From IMG/VR virus record IMGVR_UViG_3300043786_000977, positions 35,907 through 99,906 of that record: a stretch of DNA of 64,000 nt; one strand, given 5' to 3'. A program made the translations under genes and the position numbers. Shown one piece after another: positions 7,005 to 62,929 of this stretch; the first letter of the stretch is position 1, and each line of letters starts with the position of its first letter. The stretch comes from a virus. The notes beneath the pieces were generated by a model. That model had not been told where the DNA came from and made no database searches. It saw only the letters and a list, made by a program, of their open reading frames with translations.

Positions 7005-8912
7005 ATGACTGTTCGACAATATGCCGCAAGTGTGGTGATCAGTGCGGGTATCGCAATAACTGGCGTTATGTGGTATCAGAACCGTATGCCTTATATAGCT
7101 GGTGAGGATATTGCGGCACTAACTGCTGATGCCTATACTGTGCGTAGTGTTGTGATAAGCCCTGCTATTCGACAAGGTTATATGAGAGATGCATGGACAT
7201 ACGGGAATGAAGATTATTGGTATCCCGGTGCTCCCGGTACTTGGGACTGGGTTTACAAACAGGTAGGCGAGACAACTATTACTGTGTTCAGAGCGTCATC
7301 TGATATTCAGAATTTATGTGCATTGGTGCAAGATTGTTTCATAGACGCAGATGCACCGGGCGCCCTTTTGGGAGGGACTTATCAGCGTTATTATCTAGAC
7401 CCCCGTTGCCTAAGCGGGGCGGCTGACGAATTGACAATGAAAATAACCCCACAATGGTCTAACACCCCAACATATACGTTATACATACCCGCCGGGAATT
7501 ATAAGACAAACATAGTATTTTCAGGGACTATAACCAACATTGATGCTGATGGCGTAACACTATTAGATAGGATGACTACAGGGACTAATAAGTTTGGTGC
7601 ACCGTCCGTTTATCTTTTTAGCGCCGCAGTAAATACGCCAATAAGCAGACTAGGCAGTATTTACAGGACGCCTCCACCCGTTTGGCCAGATATGACGAGG
7701 TTTGATGGAAGGCAGAACTACACCGCATTTACAAACCGCCTGAATGGTTGCGCATCGTGGTGGACGTATGCAGGTATCTCACCTATATCCTATATGCTGG
7801 AGCCACTCGAAGTATTGCGAGTTACTGATTGTAATCCTGTAAATCTGTCCTACGCATATATTGACTGGCGCAGTTACGAACTAGGGAAGAGTCCAGATAA
7901 AACGTTTACAGACCCCGGGGTTGGTGTCAGTGTGCGTCCAACTGCGTTTATAACGACAAACGGACTCAATGTTATCAGAAAAGTTCTGACGAATATGGTT
8001 AGAACTGTTGAATTCTCGCCAGTGTGTGTTGGCACAAATATAACATTCACGCATACAGCAACATACGGTGTAGAGTCTACCAATGGGTTTAGTAATTCAG
8101 ACCCAATCAACTACATTCCATTGGTGACTAATACACTTACTGCAAGCACAAATGCGTTGACTACCACGCTAACTGGGTATCAATTTTATTCTGCGGAGGA
8201 ACGGTTATACAATCGACTTTACAAATATCCGTGGGCACCGACAAATTATGTGAGTTCTGCAGATTCGTCTGTGATCTGGACGCATTATAGTTTCTCACCT
8301 ACTAATATCCCAATCTCGATGTATACGAACGGATTTGTTAAACGTGTTAGATTTTATGTTACCTGTGACTCGACTACTCCGATGCTCTGGTATCCACGGC
8401 TTAGTGTGTATTCCGACGCTGAAGTTACTTTAACTGGATTAACAGCGTATACCCGTGCAAGGCTGAACGAATACGAGTCCTATACTAATGACTATCCGAT
8501 AGTTGTAAATAATATGTTGGCTGATATAATGCCTGTTGGTGTCCCTAGTGACAATTACCGTTCTTGGGTATGGGTTACAGCTTTGAGTAATAGGGGGAAA
8601 AGTTTTGACAACTTCGCAACCAACCAGATATGGAACCTAATTGGTGATACGACTAACACACTGACAACCCCTGTATTTACGTTTACTAATGGGAAGTCCC
8701 AACTAGGTGATGTATCATTCAGAACGCCTACACAAATGGTAGAGGCGACAGGCCCAGAGATTGATCTTAAGTATCTAAAGGCTTATTGGCTATACCACAA
8801 AATGCAAATAATGAAGACTATGATGGTAGTTGACTGGAATATCCCATTAATGAGCAATGGGGGCACGAATGTGTATACCCCTGCGTGGGCTACAACCAAC
8901 TCGGTGCCCTGA
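7005..8912 (+). CDS. Large Asn/Thr-rich protein with N-terminal hydrophobic segment, 635 aa
   Basis: Not recognised. The first 25 residues include a hydrophobic run (ASVVISAGIAITGVMWY) that could be a signal peptide or membrane anchor. The rest is rich in Asn, Thr, Tyr and aromatic residues with no catalytic motif seen, in the style of secreted beta-rich proteins. A ribosome binding site (AAGGGG) precedes the ATG. Codon and base use are visibly more AT-rich than in the neighbouring structural genes, suggesting a separate origin. A promoter follows immediately, so this is the last gene of the first transcription unit. Could be an adhesin or fibre; uncertain. Confidence 0.85.
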   Translation: MTVRQYAASVVISAGIAITGVMWYQNRMPYIAGEDIAALTADAYTVRSVVISPAIRQGYMRDAWTYGNEDYWYPGAPGTWDWVYKQVGETTITVFRASSDIQNLCALVQDCFIDADAPGALLGGTYQRYYLDPRCLSGAADELTMKITPQWSNTPTYTLYIPAGNYKTNIVFSGTITNIDADGVTLLDRMTTGTNKFGAPSVYLFSAAVNTPISRLGSIYRTPPPVWPDMTRFDGRQNYTAFTNRLNGCASWWTYAGISPISYMLEPLEVLRVTDCNPVNLSYAYIDWRSYELGKSPDKTFTDPGVGVSVRPTAFITTNGLNVIRKVLTNMVRTVEFSPVCVGTNITFTHTATYGVESTNGFSNSDPINYIPLVTNTLTASTNALTTTLTGYQFYSAEERLYNRLYKYPWAPTNYVSSADSSVIWTHYSFSPTNIPISMYTNGFVKRVRFYVTCDSTTPMLWYPRLSVYSDAEVTLTGLTAYTRARLNEYESYTNDYPIVVNNMLADIMPVGVPSDNYRSWVWVTALSNRGKSFDNFATNQIWNLIGDTTNTLTTPVFTFTNGKSQLGDVSFRTPTQMVEATGPEIDLKYLKAYWLYHKMQIMKTMMVVDWNIPLMSNGGTNVYTPAWATTNSVP

Positions 8913-34761: not shown

Positions 34762-35403
34762 ATGAGTACCAGTGATAGTGATTGCGCGTTTTATCCTGCC
34801 CCGTTTCAGGTTGATATTGTCGACACCCTTAACCAAGCTGAGATCCTGGCTAAGTTGGAAGAGTGTGGCCGGACTTGTTATAAGAGCGAAGCCAAGATGG
34901 ACTCAAATACTGCAGCACCGTTTATACGCAATATCATCAAGCGGGGACACGAATCGGTACTGGAGCATGTCAGCGTTACGGTACGCATCTGGTGTGACCG
35001 CGGTGTAACCCACGAACTCGTGCGCCACCGTATCGCATCTTATTCACAAGAGTCGACGCGCTATTGCGATTACGGATCTAGCCGTATCGTCTGTATTTCG
35101 CCGCTTAAACACATGACAGAAGCCCAGTATGTCGTATGGGAGCGGGCTATGGAAGCCGCAGCCCGTGCGTATAAAGAACTACGGGCATTGAATTGTTCTC
35201 CGCAGATTGCCAGAAGCGTTCTACCCAACAGTTTGAAGACCGAAATCGTAACAACGATGAATCTACGAGAGTGGCGTTATGTTCTACGGTTGCGTTCGAG
35301 CACCGCGGCACATCCACAAATGCGAGAGTTGATGCAGGAACTCTTGTCTAAATTCCAACAAAAACTACCTGTAATATTCGAGGATATAAACAATGAAAGC
35401 TAA
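34762..35403 (+). CDS. thyX: FAD-dependent thymidylate synthase, 213 aa
   Basis: Makes dTMP from dUMP using methylene-tetrahydrofolate, NADPH and FAD. The ThyX signature is present as RHRIASYSQESTRY (residues 88-101), a known variant of RHRxxSxNExSxR. GHESVLEHVSVTV (about 62-74) and the C-terminal ARSVLPNSLKTEIVTTMNLREW-type region (key RSVLP, NLREW, RLRSS) are also typical. Full length. It overlaps the following small gene by 11 bases. Supplies thymidylate for phage DNA synthesis. Confidence 0.95.
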   Translation: MSTSDSDCAFYPAPFQVDIVDTLNQAEILAKLEECGRTCYKSEAKMDSNTAAPFIRNIIKRGHESVLEHVSVTVRIWCDRGVTHELVRHRIASYSQESTRYCDYGSSRIVCISPLKHMTEAQYVVWERAMEAAARAYKELRALNCSPQIARSVLPNSLKTEIVTTMNLREWRYVLRLRSSTAAHPQMRELMQELLSKFQQKLPVIFEDINNES

Positions 35404-52286: not shown

Positions 52287-52601
52287 ATGAAGTCTTTATT
52301 AGCATATAAACTGTTGCGTGTGCGCAAGGATTCATCATTGGGTCCGTTGTTCATCAATTGTCGCCAGCGTATTGAACCTGGCAAATGGTTAAAAGCGGAA
52401 GCCCATCGCCGGAAGGGTTATGCCTTCCGGCCGGGCTGGCACTGTACAGCGAAACCGTACGCCCCGCACTTGTCCACGAAAGGACGGGCGTGGTTTGCGG
52501 TACTCGTACGTGATTACGTGACCTACACTCGGCCTGCGGCACAAGGCGGTCAATGGATACTTGCGCAAAAAATGTGCGTATTACGCCTAGGTGTGCAATG
52601 A
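52287..52601 (+). CDS. Conserved hypothetical phage protein, 104 aa
   Basis: Member of a small conserved family common in phages and plasmids, with LRVRKDSSLGPLFIN, KGYAFRPGWHC and KPYAPHLS segments followed by GQWILA. No catalytic function is assigned. The single His-Cys pair (GWHC) could bind metal. It overlaps the polymerase start by 4 bases and follows the primase by 2. Confidence 0.8.
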   Translation: MKSLLAYKLLRVRKDSSLGPLFINCRQRIEPGKWLKAEAHRRKGYAFRPGWHCTAKPYAPHLSTKGRAWFAVLVRDYVTYTRPAAQGGQWILAQKMCVLRLGVQ

Positions 52602-55366
52602 CGAAGAAAGAAAAAGTAGAGGAACCGTCACCCTATCCGATATGGATGGATGAGACGGCACGGACTGTTGAAGGTAAAATATGGCTACGGGGACGTGGAC
52701 CCTTGCCGGCACCTTTCATGTTCGTCGGTGAACGGCCTCTGGAAAAAGAGGTCAAGGCAAAGCGGGTGTTTCACGGCGCCACCGGTGAATTACTTAATAC
52801 ACGGCTCGTGATGAATGGTTTCGATACTGCGTCTTGCTATCTGACAAACGCAGTCAAGTACCCGATCCCCCGAAACAAGAACGCGGCGGCCAAGGACTTG
52901 AAGGTGTGTCACGCGATGCTCGAAGAAGAAATCAAGCGCTGTAATCCGAAGGTGATCGTATGCCTAGGATCAGCTGCCCTGCGTGCAGTCGTGGGCCGTG
53001 ATATGAACATATCCTCGATTCGAGGGGAGTTAGTACGTGATCCGGTGCGCAATGTAGACATACTTGCGATGCATAATCCGGCATACGTGTTACACAATCC
53101 GGAAGTCATGGCTGCGTTCGATCGGGATATCTGTGAACTCGTAAGGTATCAGCGCGGCGAACAACCGATGCTGGACCCTGCCGACTGGGTCGAAATCCGG
53201 ACCGTGGCCTGGCTACGTGAATTCGTAGCCAGCGTCTTTGCGGAACAGGCGAATCCTGTTCTCGTAATAGACATGGAATGGAACGGTAAGACATGGATGG
53301 ATCCCGATCGGTATATTCGGACTATCCAGATCTGTCATAAACCGGGTCAAGCTGTGATTGTAGTCATGCGTGGCGAAAACGGTGTACCGGCAATGGACGA
53401 TGAACCGGAAGCCTGGAGAATTCTTAAGACGTTACTTGAGGATCCCCGGGTGGGTATCATCGGACATAATGCAATCGCGGATGGTCACTGGCTACTCGGA
53501 CAGAACATAGATATCCGACCACGTGTGATATGGGACACGATGCTCGCTGAGTTCCTGCTGCATGAGACAGGACCGTGGGGTCTGGAGGAGGTGACACTAC
53601 GGTACACAAATCACCGGCGCTACTCCCTAAACCTGGAGATGTGGGTAAATGAGCATAAGACTGAATGTAAACATGGTTACGGCCCCGTGCCCGAGAGCTT
53701 GTTGTTTCCATACGGGGCTATCGACGTAATAGGTCCACGGCAAATTGCTGAGAAGCAGTATCCGTTGGTCGCTGCCGAGTTTATGCAGCCCCGTGGATTA
53801 CGCGGACAATATCCGAGCCTGTGGCAAACCACGTTGCGGACACAGGAACTGTTGTATGAGCTCGAACGTAACGGGATGGCCATAGATACGGAACGTCTGG
53901 AGCAGCTCATCGTCGCATATCAACGTGTGCGTGCACAGTTACTGGGTGTTGTTACAACCGAGGCTGCTGCAGCTGGTTTCATTGAATTCAGTCCGACGTC
54001 CGTACAAGACGTTCAGAAGATGTTGTTTCAAGTTCTGAAACTCCCGCCTGTTAAAACAACCGAAGGGCGTGCCTGGGTTGATGACGTGGGTAACCAGGGT
54101 TTGGATAATCCAACGGAATCGACACCGTCAACGGATAAGACAACACTTGAGATCCTGGAAGACGAACATGCCCTGGTACACCACCTACTGCAGTTTCGTC
54201 GAATTGATCAGAGTTGCAAGACATGGTTACGGCATCCTAAAGAGGGTGAAGATGAAGTCTCCAAGGGCGGAGGAATAGGTGCCAAGATCTGGGCAGATGG
54301 CAGGATTCATGCACGGTTTTCGCAACTAGCAGAAACCGGTCGTTTTCGTACAGCACAGCCCAATGTGCAGAACTGGCCCAAGAAGGCAGAAGGATATATG
54401 GAAGAGATCTTCGGGAAGGACAATATGCCTCCCGGGATCCGGACTATTATCGTTCCTGCCCCTGGTTATGTTCTGATGGAAGGAGACTTCGTACAGGCTG
54501 AGTTGTTCGTACTAGCTGCGCTTTCGGGCGATCAGAATATGATGTCGGCGTTAACGACACCGGGGCGCGACTTACACGACGTTACGGCGATAACCGCATT
54601 CAAATTGAAGGTATACGATCCGCAAGGTAATGAGGTACCGGAATCCGTACTAATTGATCTTGCTAAGAAGAATCTACCAAAAGGATCCGAGAGTAAGGAG
54701 TTCAAGAGTTTCGTAAAGACACTACGTTACGTTGATCTGAGAGGCAAGGTGATGACACGTGACGAATTTAAAGAGACGATACGGGTGTCCGCAAAAAACG
54801 TGAATTTCGGGATTCCTTACGGACGCGGCGCGTTGGATATCGCTCGACAGGTCAAGGCCGAGACGGGCAGTAAGCAGACGATACAAGAACTCGAAACAGA
54901 CTTGAGTGAGATTGTGCGTGTATGGAAAGAAGAAACATACGCGACAGCCTGGGCATACATGCGACGGTGTGCACAGTCTGTATACGATCCTGGGTATATC
55001 AAAAATCCCTGGGGTCGTTATCGCCGTTTCCCTCGAGCACGAAATGACGAAGAACGTGCTGACGTGGAGCGTCAGGCACAGAATTTCCCGATTCAATCCA
55101 CAGTTGCGGACACGGCGATGATCGCCATGGACCTGATTGCGCGATATAGGGAAGCGAACGGATTACATTTCCGTATTGTGAACCAAATTCACGATGCGGT
55201 AATGATCGAAACACCAATTGACGAAATCGACCAGTGCAAACTTATGTACGGTGATACAATGGGCGCTATCGACATTCCAGTAGGACCACCATTCAACATA
55301 CTACGATTAGGCGTTGACATGAAAATACTAACTCGCTGGGGTGAAGAAGCCAAATCAAAAGACTAG
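52598..55366 (+). CDS. polA: DNA polymerase I family with UDG-like N-terminal domain, 922 aa
   Basis: Start at ATG 52598, overlapping the previous stop. Residues about 35-200 resemble family 4 uracil-DNA-glycosylase-like domains (FMFVGERPLEKE, LTNAVKY, IVCLGSAAL, HNPAYVL). About 215-400 is a 3'-5' exonuclease (VIDMEWNG, GHNAIADG, YGAIDVIGP). The polymerase follows with motif A EGDFVQAE near 628, motif B KNVNFGIPYG near 734 and motif C NQIHDAVM near 866. In motif C the usual Glu after Asp is Ala. The N-terminal cysteines typical of Fe-S UDGs are partly missing, so glycosylase activity is doubtful. Confidence 0.93.
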   Translation: MTKKEKVEEPSPYPIWMDETARTVEGKIWLRGRGPLPAPFMFVGERPLEKEVKAKRVFHGATGELLNTRLVMNGFDTASCYLTNAVKYPIPRNKNAAAKDLKVCHAMLEEEIKRCNPKVIVCLGSAALRAVVGRDMNISSIRGELVRDPVRNVDILAMHNPAYVLHNPEVMAAFDRDICELVRYQRGEQPMLDPADWVEIRTVAWLREFVASVFAEQANPVLVIDMEWNGKTWMDPDRYIRTIQICHKPGQAVIVVMRGENGVPAMDDEPEAWRILKTLLEDPRVGIIGHNAIADGHWLLGQNIDIRPRVIWDTMLAEFLLHETGPWGLEEVTLRYTNHRRYSLNLEMWVNEHKTECKHGYGPVPESLLFPYGAIDVIGPRQIAEKQYPLVAAEFMQPRGLRGQYPSLWQTTLRTQELLYELERNGMAIDTERLEQLIVAYQRVRAQLLGVVTTEAAAAGFIEFSPTSVQDVQKMLFQVLKLPPVKTTEGRAWVDDVGNQGLDNPTESTPSTDKTTLEILEDEHALVHHLLQFRRIDQSCKTWLRHPKEGEDEVSKGGGIGAKIWADGRIHARFSQLAETGRFRTAQPNVQNWPKKAEGYMEEIFGKDNMPPGIRTIIVPAPGYVLMEGDFVQAELFVLAALSGDQNMMSALTTPGRDLHDVTAITAFKLKVYDPQGNEVPESVLIDLAKKNLPKGSESKEFKSFVKTLRYVDLRGKVMTRDEFKETIRVSAKNVNFGIPYGRGALDIARQVKAETGSKQTIQELETDLSEIVRVWKEETYATAWAYMRRCAQSVYDPGYIKNPWGRYRRFPRARNDEERADVERQAQNFPIQSTVADTAMIAMDLIARYREANGLHFRIVNQIHDAVMIETPIDEIDQCKLMYGDTMGAIDIPVGPPFNILRLGVDMKILTRWGEEAKSKD

Positions 55367-56877: not shown

Positions 56878-58182
56878 ATGGCACCCCGTGGTAAGAAAGA
56901 ATTAGCGCCGTCGGCGCCGCTGAGCAAGCAGGCACAGTTATTGCAACGCCTGCAAGAGAATAACATGTCCGTATCTACTGCCTCTCGTGTCATGAATAAC
57001 TGGCGGTACATCGATTTCATGAATCCAAGTGCACAACTGCCGACAATCTCATTGGAGTGGCTGTTCGGTGCTCGTGGCCTGTTGGCCGGCCGTATTATGC
57101 AATTGCGTGCCAAGTTTAGTAAGGGTAAATCGTCATTCATGTATCTGCAGTACGGTGCTGCACAACTGATGTCGAAGGCCTTCTGTCTGCACATTGAGAC
57201 TGAAGGTGCAGGTGCCCCTGCAGATTACATCGCCTCTATGGGTTGTAATCCGAATGATCTGATGGTTGCAGAGATACCATCTTTGGAAGATTGCCTGTCA
57301 AAGGTCGACGAAGTCGTATGCCAAATCCGCGGCGGGTTTGGCGGTGGTGTCAGCGCTGAAGGCCGGGCAACCAAGACCAAGTTTACGGATCCTATCGATC
57401 CGAATAACGAATCGCCGATCGTCATCGGGATTGACTCGTTAAGTTCGTTGGGTATGGAATCAGGCGTAGACGTAGATATCGCTGATATCAGTTCGTCGGC
57501 ACAACTGTCATACCATACACGGAAACTGCGAGAGTACTTCCGTAATCGTGTCGGCCGATTCCGGGACACACAGACCTTGCTCATGTTGACATCGCACGAG
57601 ACGGCGAAGATTGAGATGGGCGGTAAGAAGGGCTTCGGTGCATCAGCGGGCGGCGACAAATCATCGTTGGCGCAGGAGGCCGTCGGTATTCATGCCACTT
57701 ATGGTGTGGACCTGAACTCGACACCCTACTGGGATAAGAGCATCGGAAAGCAAATCGGTGACATCGTTAAGATGCGTACCTTCAAGAATAAACTGTCTCC
57801 CCGCTTCCGTGACTTGGATCTGTACCTGGTGTGGAATGCCGGTTTCGATCTGATCCGCACGGACGTTGAGTTCTTGATGAACCATAGTGCGTCGCCATTT
57901 GCCCCGCAGGAAGGCAAGGACAAGCAACTGTATGCTCACGCCCACGGTATCACATGTAAACCGTTGAGCGATAAGCCGTTCAAGACACAGGAGGATTTCT
58001 TGAGGGCCTTGTACGGGAACACGGATTACGTCATGAGCCTGCGTGAACAATTGCGTATTCGTGGTTGTGGCTTTGCGTTCGAAACCAGGTATCAGGAGCA
58101 ACTCGAGGCGCAAGAGGCACAAGAGGTAAAGGGCCAAGCAGTGGTGGACGAACTGGCAGATGCCGGTGAAGGACCGGCATAG
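56878..58182 (+). CDS. RecA/UvsX-like recombinase, 434 aa
   Basis: ATPase core: Walker-A-like AKFSKGKSS (78-86), catalytic Glu in HIETEGA (about 106), Walker B IVIGIDSLSSL (about 181-191) and a C-terminal part with LWNAGFDL-type strands. The first Gly of Walker A is absent (Ala instead), unlike RecA GPESSGKT. Performs strand exchange in phage recombination and repair. GAGGAG precedes the ATG. The C-terminal tail is acidic (AQEAQEVKGQ...DAGEGPA). Sequence is longer than E. coli RecA (352) by about 80 residues. Confidence 0.9.
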   Translation: MAPRGKKELAPSAPLSKQAQLLQRLQENNMSVSTASRVMNNWRYIDFMNPSAQLPTISLEWLFGARGLLAGRIMQLRAKFSKGKSSFMYLQYGAAQLMSKAFCLHIETEGAGAPADYIASMGCNPNDLMVAEIPSLEDCLSKVDEVVCQIRGGFGGGVSAEGRATKTKFTDPIDPNNESPIVIGIDSLSSLGMESGVDVDIADISSSAQLSYHTRKLREYFRNRVGRFRDTQTLLMLTSHETAKIEMGGKKGFGASAGGDKSSLAQEAVGIHATYGVDLNSTPYWDKSIGKQIGDIVKMRTFKNKLSPRFRDLDLYLVWNAGFDLIRTDVEFLMNHSASPFAPQEGKDKQLYAHAHGITCKPLSDKPFKTQEDFLRALYGNTDYVMSLREQLRIRGCGFAFETRYQEQLEAQEAQEVKGQAVVDELADAGEGPA

Positions 58183-60515: not shown

Positions 60516-60959
60516 ATGGCAGACTTCGACACGTTGAATGATTCAGGGGAACGACGTACATTTGCTAGTGGTGCACAGCGGGATCGCGGTAAAGACAAAA
60601 CCAGACCCGACCTAGTATCACCGTTTTTTCTCCAACGCCTGGGCTGGCACATGATGTTGGGCGCACGTAAATATTCCGCGAATAATTGGGCTAAGGGCAT
60701 GCCCAATAGTGAGTTCTGGGCCTCACTTAATCGACACGTTGCGCAGGCTGCTGTAGGTGATACATCCGAAGATCACCTATCTGCTATTGCCTTCAACGTC
60801 ATGGGTATTATCCACAATCAAGAGATGAAAAAACTGGGTTTGCTGAAACCTGAGTTTGACGACTGGCCCGTAAACTGGGGCGAGTTAACGGGTATGGGTC
60901 CACGTGTGGCGCCTGAACCCCCAATCACACGCGCTGTCGATCCTAAACCCGGAGTTTGA
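60516..60959 (+). CDS. dATP/dGTP diphosphohydrolase-like protein (DUF5664), 147 aa
   Basis: The segment ERRTFASGAQRDRGKDKTRPDL (key SGAQRD and GK.R.DL, about 12-33), then GARKYSANNWAKGMP and SLNRHVAQA..G..SEDHLSAIAFNVMG match the DUF5664 family, described as dATP/dGTP diphosphohydrolase-like and found in many phages. These hydrolyse dNTPs to adjust pools. One base after the previous stop. In this window it sits beside two DNA-glycosylase-like genes. Confidence 0.85.
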   Translation: MADFDTLNDSGERRTFASGAQRDRGKDKTRPDLVSPFFLQRLGWHMMLGARKYSANNWAKGMPNSEFWASLNRHVAQAAVGDTSEDHLSAIAFNVMGIIHNQEMKKLGLLKPEFDDWPVNWGELTGMGPRVAPEPPITRAVDPKPGV

Positions 60960-60960
60960 G

Positions 60961-61650
60961 ATGCAAACGGATACAGCGACACAACATCTCGACAGCATTC
61001 GGCCGGTAGAGGTCGAGCGGTATTCCAGGTACCTGGTTAACATCGCGCCAAAAACGCACAAGGATCTCTTCCAGCGTTGGCTCTTTGCCTATGCCAGTGT
61101 CCACACGACCTGGACATTGAACTGTAAATTGTACCGGTTATTGGCGCCTATGACCTGGTTGGGTGACACGAATCAATTGAAGGACTTGATCATCAAATCG
61201 GGTGCAGGATTACACAACAACCGCACCCGGTATATCATGCAGTTCTCCGATTGGTTCTGGGCACATCCCGATTGGTTTTGGCGTTCGACGCATGAGAACT
61301 GGACCCAGTATCGTGACCGTATAATGGATGCGGCTCTGGGTATCGGACGGGCTAAGTCCAGTTTCGTTGTCGAGATGACCTACCCAGTACCTGCGGAGGT
61401 TATCTGTACAGACACGCATATCATGCAACTGTACGGTATGACACCCAAGGATATAGCAAGCGGGAAGATAAACGATAAGACAGAAGCAGCAATGGAAACC
61501 CACTGGGTCGCTGCTTGTCGGGAACGTAAACTACCGCCCGTGATTAGCCGTTGGGTTTATTGGGACCGTAAGCAAGGCTACAGTGACAGTCGTTACTGGT
61601 CATTCGTATTCGAGCAGGAAAACTATCACGAAACGCTTAACATCAAATAA
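60961..61650 (+). CDS. HhH-GPD-superfamily DNA-glycosylase-like protein, 229 aa
   Basis: Start ATG 60961 just after the previous stop. The HhH motif is AALGIGRAKSSF (about 127-138), followed by the catalytic-Asp region VICTDTHIMQLYG (about 149-161), the same order as in EndoIII and Ogg enzymes (GxGxKxA...DTH). The Lys of bifunctional glycosylases appears shifted by one residue (GRAK rather than GRK), so lyase activity is uncertain. Trp-rich middle (QFSDWFWAHPDWFW). A base-excision or base-modification role is inferred. Confidence 0.75.
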   Translation: MQTDTATQHLDSIRPVEVERYSRYLVNIAPKTHKDLFQRWLFAYASVHTTWTLNCKLYRLLAPMTWLGDTNQLKDLIIKSGAGLHNNRTRYIMQFSDWFWAHPDWFWRSTHENWTQYRDRIMDAALGIGRAKSSFVVEMTYPVPAEVICTDTHIMQLYGMTPKDIASGKINDKTEAAMETHWVAACRERKLPPVISRWVYWDRKQGYSDSRYWSFVFEQENYHETLNIK

Positions 61651-61658
61651 GGCTGATA

Positions 61659-62090
61659 ATGGCAACTGATTGGAGTAAACTACCCGTATTACGGAATGAC
61701 AAACTGTTGTTCCAGGACACGTCCATGGCTCCTCTGCCCGGTGGCATTGTTCCATGTCTGTTATGCTGTAAGCCTTTCCTCATGGGTTTCTTCATCGGAA
61801 CTCCCGATCAACTGTGTCCTGAATGCGAGAAGCTATACAAGGACACCGCGAAGGTGATCTGCGTACGATGCCGACCGCCTGTGACAATCTGTCGCCTGAT
61901 ACCCAAGATACTGGACAACGGATTCTATATCCGTCCCAAGTCCGTGTTGCATTCGGATTGTTGCAATGTATGCAAACCTGGACTTACGGCATCGTCAATA
62001 TTGGAGATTGAAGAATGGGAACGGAAACGTCGACCGGGCAAGCTGATACTACCAGTTGGGAAATCTGCCTCAACGAAACAGAGCACATAA
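61659..62090 (+). CDS. Cysteine-rich zinc-binding protein, 143 aa
   Basis: Contains CLLCC (33-37), CPEC (53-56), CVRC (68-71) and DCCNVC (about 100-105), four Cys knuckles that can bind two zinc ions in a treble-clef-like or ring-like fold. The C-terminus is basic (ERKRRPGK). No named family recognised. It lies between the two glycosylase-like genes and overlaps the second one by 76 bases, suggesting a partner in the same DNA-processing function (inference). Confidence 0.75.
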   Translation: MATDWSKLPVLRNDKLLFQDTSMAPLPGGIVPCLLCCKPFLMGFFIGTPDQLCPECEKLYKDTAKVICVRCRPPVTICRLIPKILDNGFYIRPKSVLHSDCCNVCKPGLTASSILEIEEWERKRRPGKLILPVGKSASTKQST

Positions 62091-62929
62091 AACTGATTGG
62101 TAGCATCGAGACTGTACTGGATAAGTTGGGCCTCGAGTTACCCAACAAAGGGAAGACCAACTACGGATCTGAAATCACGGCACTCGCCGGAGCACTGAAC
62201 CGCTTCGGGCATAATGTCGGGCTGTGGACAGCAGAGTATGGTAACGGGCAGGAGATACTGCAGAAACACTTGACGTTTACGCTCATGGTACCCGGCGGTA
62301 GAGCGAGCCGTGTGCGTGACGCAGTAAACCTAATGAGTCAACGCAATGTCCTGCCGGTACTTCCCGGGCAGCCCGTACAGTCGTTGTTGTTAAGACAGAT
62401 CATTGCGCCGTTGGTACGTTTTCCCAATCAAAAGGCGGAACGTGTTGTTACTGCGCTTCGAGGTTGGGACTCTTACATAGTTCCGGTCGTGTGTAAGCAT
62501 ATAGCTTTACCGGCTAACCAACTACGTAAGATCGTGATGGAAAGTGTGGTCGGCTTTGGCGAAAAAGCTGCATCACATTTCATGCGCAATACAGGATTGA
62601 TGAGAGGATGGTCGGCACTCCCCATCATTGACACGCATATTCATAAAGCGTTGGAGGTCTATCAACTTCCACATAAAGGGTACCCGGACGCCGAGTGCTC
62701 TTTCACAGCGTTGGCGACAAAGACGGGTATTCCCCCGTTGCTGCTCGATGCCGTGTTGTGGTGTGCTTATGCCAAGAACTGGGACGTTACACACTCTGAC
62801 TTCGATAACTTCGGATACACAACAGTAATCAATAAACAAGAACAAGGACACAGTAATGAAAGAAATCATGGATCTCGTAGCACAAATTCACAGGACACTC
62901 GCAGCCAAGGGGCTGGTAGCCACACCTGA
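62015..62929 (+). CDS. AGOG/Ogg2-type HhH DNA-glycosylase-like protein, 304 aa
   Basis: ATG 62015, 10 bases after GGAG, overlapping the previous gene by 76 bases. The core is ESVVGFGEKAASHFMRNTG followed by LPIIDTHIHKAL (about residues 171-212), closely matching archaeal AGOG and bacterial Ogg2 8-oxoguanine glycosylases (G.G.KEASHFLRN.G...IIDRHIL), with the catalytic Lys and Asp retained. A base-excision activity, such as 8-oxoG removal, is likely but the substrate could differ. C-terminal tail is Ser/Asn/Gln-rich. Confidence 0.85.
   Translation: MGTETSTGQADTTSWEICLNETEHIKLIGSIETVLDKLGLELPNKGKTNYGSEITALAGALNRFGHNVGLWTAEYGNGQEILQKHLTFTLMVPGGRASRVRDAVNLMSQRNVLPVLPGQPVQSLLLRQIIAPLVRFPNQKAERVVTALRGWDSYIVPVVCKHIALPANQLRKIVMESVVGFGEKAASHFMRNTGLMRGWSALPIIDTHIHKALEVYQLPHKGYPDAECSFTALATKTGIPPLLLDAVLWCAYAKNWDVTHSDFDNFGYTTVINKQEQGHSNERNHGSRSTNSQDTRSQGAGSHT

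Follow-up and report, generated by a model that had tools for sequence, protein, structure and literature searches.

Do phage proteins of the helix-hairpin-helix (HhH) glycosylase type repair DNA, or could they read, excise or transform a modified base in the phage genome? The question is raised by four adjacent open reading frames, P0001 to P0004, in a 64,000-nucleotide stretch (the window) that comprises bases 35907 to 99906 of a 208,908-base (209-kb) IMG/VR phage record. The original prediction, made from the sequence of the window, left both options open. We find that the four genes look like swappable DNA-repair and nucleotide clean-up genes of a large uncultured phage and not like a base-modification system.

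The locus and its surroundings

As predicted, a dNTP hydrolase-like gene, an HhH gene, a Cys-rich gene and a second HhH gene were all present at 60516 to 62929. In our reading of the open reading frames they lie head to tail on the + strand, and the first 76 bases of P0004 are shared with the end of P0003. The other two genes that had been named, thyX (34762-35403) and a polymerase with a UDG domain, were also found in the window. The latter encodes a family A DNA polymerase with an N-terminal UDG domain (52553-55366, + strand; PF00476, E = 1e-51; PF03167, E = 1.9e-19) and is the upstream anchor of a syntenic module, which has a further anchor in the gene for a UvsX-like recombinase (56878-58182, + strand; phrog_97, E = 4e-19). 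Elsewhere the record encodes an Anti-Pycsar Apyc1-like metallo-beta-lactamase protein (L005:17486-18517, G000 134985-136016; 71.9 bits, cut-off 50) and an RlaP-like RNA-repair nucleotidyltransferase (L007:1767-2672, G000 156266-157171; PF10127, E = 6e-16).

P0004 resembles Ogg2 glycosylases

P0004 (62015-62929, + strand, 304 aa) matched the Ogg-HhH family PF22175 with 55.2 bits (cut-off 27, E = 8e-15) and AGOG with only 14.6 bits. Of the proposed "AGOG/Ogg2-like" identity, the Ogg2 part was thus borne out while the AGOG part was not. The protein also matched the NCBIfam N-glycosylase/DNA lyase model NF002305 (E = 8e-16), with a score of 58 against an equivalog cut-off of 183.

The functional residues of Ogg2 have been described as Lys129, Asp147, His133, Trp198, Asp194, Arg84, Phe85 and a C-terminal lysine (PMC3397491, PMC5069365). 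In our alignments K184 (62564-62566) and D206 (62630-62632) of P0004 correspond to Lys129 and Asp147 of MjaOgg and are invariant in three homologues, while H188, W249 (62759-62761), D245 (62747-62749) and R135-F136 correspond to His133, Trp198, Asp194 and Arg84-Phe85, the roles of which come from the same two studies. All seven of these Ogg2 residues are therefore kept. On the other hand, P0004 is extended at its N-terminus and has some 37 additional residues in its tail as compared to Ogg2, and the C-terminal lysine is absent as the chain runs well past the last Ogg2 helix; two homologues end in KQ (L101) and QQ (L152). P0004 would most likely remove lesions of the 8-oxoguanine type in the manner of Ogg2, its catalytic pair being Asp206 and Lys184. 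The score below the equivalog cut-off and the missing C-terminal lysine both count against this assignment.

In a search of deposited phages, P0004 gave only marginal matches in Caulobacter and Salmonella phages (E = 2-6). Among large phages, the phiCbK group encodes a putative N-glycosylase/DNA lyase that shares the annotation of P0004; its match was marginal (E about 5) and was not significant by tblastn.

P0002 and its viral relatives

As a single sequence, P0002 (60961-61650, + strand, 229 aa) was close to an orphan: it reached E = 0.024 with Ogg-HhH in Pfam, had no PHROG family and found no match among deposited phages even at E = 10. Single-sequence scans of IMG/VR and of prokaryote genomes gave no relative either, probably because the peptide patterns used were too specific. 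The family was opened by a DNA pattern that encodes the spacing of the P0002 active site. This pattern occurred in at least 119 IMG/VR stretches, and the 80 loci that we read all encode one protein family. A family profile built from the viral relatives, with P0002 left out, gave P0002 283.8 bits as compared to 12.6 bits for P0004. A second scan of IMG/VR with other patterns raised the count to at least 417 stretches encoding P0002 relatives. For comparison, the standard Ogg2 motif pattern was found in 13 IMG/VR stretches only (L160-L171 and L101), although the two kinds of pattern are not strictly comparable.

Outside IMG/VR the family was scarce. Four members used as tblastn queries detected no relative among 50,697 deposited phage records. 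Five loci were found when 84,980 prokaryote species genomes were examined, and at least three of them (L144, L145 and L147) adjoin genes shared with the phage neighborhoods. A PHROG scan of eight members returned nothing significant (best E = 0.004); one relative exceeds the Pfam Ogg-HhH cut-off. P0002 belongs to a common viral family of HhH glycosylase-like proteins that has a rearranged active site and has apparently not been described before.

An ATP-dependent DNA ligase is encoded near 29 of the 80 loci, and other neighbors include rIIA/rIIB, a clamp-loader/RuvB-like ATPase, a UvsX-like recombinase and a Holliday-junction resolvase. The ligase, resolvase, UvsX-like and clamp-loader-like genes speak for the base-repair option of the original prediction. 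One could speculate from the near confinement of the family to viruses that the glycosylases are weapons against host or competitor DNA while the phage DNA is protected, all the more as a 5-hydroxymethylcytosine DNA glycosylase defends against T-even phages (PMC13160076). However, this is very unlikely, as the genes sit among replication and repair genes and no protecting modification was identified in this record.

Fold and active site of P0002

The structural model of P0002 (mean pLDDT 93.9) was compared with known folds. Its six best PDB matches are all Ogg2 proteins, from Methanocaldococcus, Thermotoga and Sulfolobus, with TM-scores of 0.61-0.75; EndoIII (E = 0.011) and OGG1 rank after them and are weaker. 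A PDB sequence search with the family profile likewise found Ogg2, at E = 3.6e-5. P0002 had been predicted to be EndoIII-like with a shifted Lys. The shift is real, the HhH motif reading GIGR-A-K as compared to GIGY-K-E, whereas the resemblance to Endonuclease III (Nth) extends to the HhH and a downstream Asp and is surpassed by the fit to Ogg2 structures. Endonuclease III has a four-cysteine Fe-S motif and a Lys at the standard place, while P0002 has three cysteines, far apart, and no Lys there.

The residue register between P0002 and Ogg2 rests on two analyses, one of them the PDB match of the family profile. In addition to the fold, P0002 shares with Ogg2 (MjaOgg, 3fhf/3knt; SsoOgg, 3fhg; TmaOgg, 3n0u) the catalytic Asp (D151, 61411-61413) and the base-stacking Trp (W201, 61561-61563). 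It differs at the position of the catalytic Lys (HhH +2), which is A131 with the invariant K132 adjoining it (61351-61356), and it has Phe135 (61363-61365) for the stacking His133, Arg197 (61549-61551) for the base-contacting Asp194 and Gly for Arg84. Ogg2 ends in a lysine and P0002 does not.

Across 63 distinct family sequences A131, K132, F135, C149 and D151 are invariant, and among the 62 with a letter at the site R197 is present in all and W201 in 61. As the first DNA pattern had forced G127, G129, A131, K132, F135, C149, D151, T152 and H153, conservation of the forced residues was rechecked on loci from the other patterns, one of which still contains DTH; 32 of the 63 sequences do not strictly match the first active-site motif.

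In the HhH superfamily, loss of the Lys at the catalytic position suggests monofunctional or atypical chemistry. Because this position is Ala in P0002 and a Lys follows one residue on, the protein probably either lacks lyase activity or is an atypical lyase; Lys132 could still be a relocated lyase lysine. The Arg where the base is contacted speaks against 8-oxoguanine as the substrate, and P0002 probably excises some other base. P0002 would act as a second base-excision enzyme, from a virus-associated HhH family. It would most likely flip out a damaged or unwanted base, stack it between Phe135 and Trp201 and read it with Arg197 instead of Asp, while Asp151 would cut the glycosidic bond. It counts against this role that the AP-endonuclease families PF01261 and PF03372 were not found in the record; a monofunctional P0002 would therefore need host enzymes or the lyase activity of P0004.

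Alternatively, the glycosylase fold of P0002 may have little or no catalytic activity and may serve to recognize a lesion, a junction or a special base and to recruit repair or recombination proteins. The Ala at the catalytic Lys position, the Arg at the base-contact Asp and the recombination genes near relatives are all consistent with this. It is nevertheless unlikely, as Asp151 and Trp201 are kept across the family and a pure binder would need neither.

P0003 and P0001

P0003 (61659-62090, + strand, 143 aa) contains four CxxC pairs (33/36, 53/56, 68/71 and 102/105) and H98, all invariant in nine homologues, in agreement with the expected Cys-rich, probably zinc-binding protein between the HhH genes. 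It has no Pfam or PHROG family, and a protein search of deposited phages found nothing. Its model is weak (core pLDDT about 80) and has no fold match. Within the module, P0003 may be an accessory protein that binds zinc.

P0001 (60516-60959, + strand, 147 aa) matched PF18909, dATP/dGTP diphosphohydrolase (DUF5664), with 58.8 bits (cut-off 27, E = 5.5e-16) and the dATP/dGTP pyrophosphohydrolase family phrog_801 (E = 4e-19), confirming the neighbor that had been proposed. The DUF5664 protein of Arthrobacter phage Wayne has the same domain, with about 30% identity to P0001, and the domain also occurs in a DUF5664-DUF550 protein of Acinetobacter phage SH-Ab 15497. Unlike those cases, P0001 stands alone, and the PurA homologue of its phage does not pass the tests for PurZ (see below). 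P0001 would lower certain purine dNTPs and be interchangeable with other genes.

Gene order in relatives

The four genes had been regarded as a set. We compared eight syntenic contigs that were fetched with P0003, which is therefore present in all eight by construction. In each, the P0003 homologue lies behind UvsX and other shared genes, and in most also behind the polymerase. P0002 is present in five of the eight. P0004 occurs in three (L151, L152 and the window), and L148 has besides, flanked by the P0003 homologue and the following gene, an in-frame stub of 28 C-terminal residues of a P0004 homologue (8425-8508), which is evidence of a deletion. DUF5664 is found in two of the eight modules, L148 and the window; its place is taken by a dNMP kinase in three contigs and, in L150, by an open reading frame without a Pfam match. 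In L152 an HNH-like open reading frame occupies the position of P0002. This patchy presence indicates that the four genes were gained, lost, replaced and exchanged independently, and the notion of a four-gene set does not hold in these relatives.

The UDG-polymerase gene is intact in the window and interrupted in relatives, at about residue 846 in L148 (736-1667) and L152 (185-1168) and at about residue 753 in L150 (132-617). None of the three interruption loci has an Rfam match.

Does the phage modify its bases?

Profile searches of the phage record gave no match to the ThyA, HMUDK_hel, ADDT, QueC or dUTPase families. Because the record may be incomplete, these absences are weak evidence.

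The two HhH proteins had been linked to the HhH enzymes of phage DNA hypermodification, and we made the comparison with those families. Neither PF18723 (HMUDK_hel) nor PF18724 (ADDT) matched P0001 to P0004 or anything in the whole record; as a positive control, the PF18724 search gave a match in phiW-14, a control that covers PF18724 only. When the P0002 fold was compared with ADDT and HMUDK_hel proteins, these came far down the ranking with low probability (E = 1.3 and 2.8). The likeness is thus one of broad fold class, and the proposed link found no support in profiles, folds or the presence of a ThyA, ADDT or QueC gene. That P0002 or P0004 is a thymine-hypermodification enzyme transforming a hydroxymethyl base is extremely unlikely: the shared HhH class would suit it, but both the profile and the fold comparisons argue against it, and the record has ThyX in place of a ThyA-family gene. 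We rejected the hypermodified-thymine route on these grounds. The 7-deazaguanine route was also set aside, as QueC, the only gene of that pathway looked for, was not found in the record.

In addition to DUF5664 there are genes for a PurA homologue and for a protein like nucleoside deoxyribosyltransferase (NDT) in the record. The combination is reminiscent of 2-aminoadenine phages, in which DUF5664, NDT-like proteins and PurZ co-occur (PMC12884076). The PurA homologue (L005:8927-10192, G000 126426-127691, outside the window) has the motif GDETKG and keeps Asp13, where phage PurZ has Ser, and also His41. It scores 45.9 bits with the PurZ model (cut-off 300), and its closest relatives are the PurA-like proteins of Bixzunavirus. 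The Z-DNA (2-aminoadenine) route was rejected because this homologue fails both the Asp13 and the PurZ-score tests. A DutZ-type dUTPase (PF00692), as in PurZ0-type Z phages, had no match in the possibly incomplete record. The PurA homologue is without most of the TTGRxRR aspartate-binding loop, as are those of Bixzunavirus I3, Vibrio phage TDDLMA, Rhizobium phage TM39 and MT835469, and it may use another co-substrate. The NDT-like protein (L004:8141-8623, G000 107140-107622; PF05014, E = 7e-10) has two matches only in deposited phages, Bradyrhizobium phage BDU-MI-1 and Tunturiibacter phage Tunturi_5.

It could be speculated that the PurA-like, NDT-like and DUF5664 enzymes reshape the purine pool of this phage and that a modified or unwanted purine is then checked or cut out by the HhH proteins. 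The three genes in one record, their counterparts in 2-aminoadenine phages and the Arg in place of the base-contact Asp of P0002 would fit such a role; however, this is quite improbable given the Asp13, the low PurZ score and the lack of a dUTPase match, and DUF5664, present in only 2/8 related modules, also occurs in canonical phages. An altered purine pool nevertheless leaves a small opening for a possible modified base. Overall we favor repair and find no support for modification. In line with the repair option of the original prediction, the sequences of both HhH proteins are of the Ogg type, and so is the fold of P0002.

A probable variable block of repair and nucleotide-pool genes

The most likely explanation, to which we assign a probability of about 0.6, is that the four genes belong to a phage replication/recombination module and make up its variable 3' end, which carries genes for base-excision repair and for the nucleotide pool, with P0004 as an Ogg2-type glycosylase, P0002 as a second base-excision enzyme, P0003 as an accessory protein and P0001 as a dNTP-lowering enzyme. 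Our data show the sequences, homology, the predicted fold of P0002, the invariant residues and the gene order, from which we infer what the proteins do, on which substrate and to what end in the infected cell.

A more far-reaching and rather doubtful reading is that the P0002 family represents a DNA glycosylase widespread in viruses, the catalytic layout of which is new (Ala-Lys for the catalytic Lys, and Arg in place of the Asp that reads the base), and that its target is a base on which no described HhH glycosylase acts; in this phage it could be tied to the remodelled purine pool of the PurA-like, NDT-like and DUF5664 enzymes.

P0002-like proteins occur in hundreds of uncultured phage contigs, and neither PHROG nor NCBIfam has a family that matches them well. 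With the conserved rearrangement of the Ogg2 active site in this family, the range of bases known to be recognized by the HhH superfamily could be widened, and the family makes the question of repair or modification directly testable for such phage HhH proteins.
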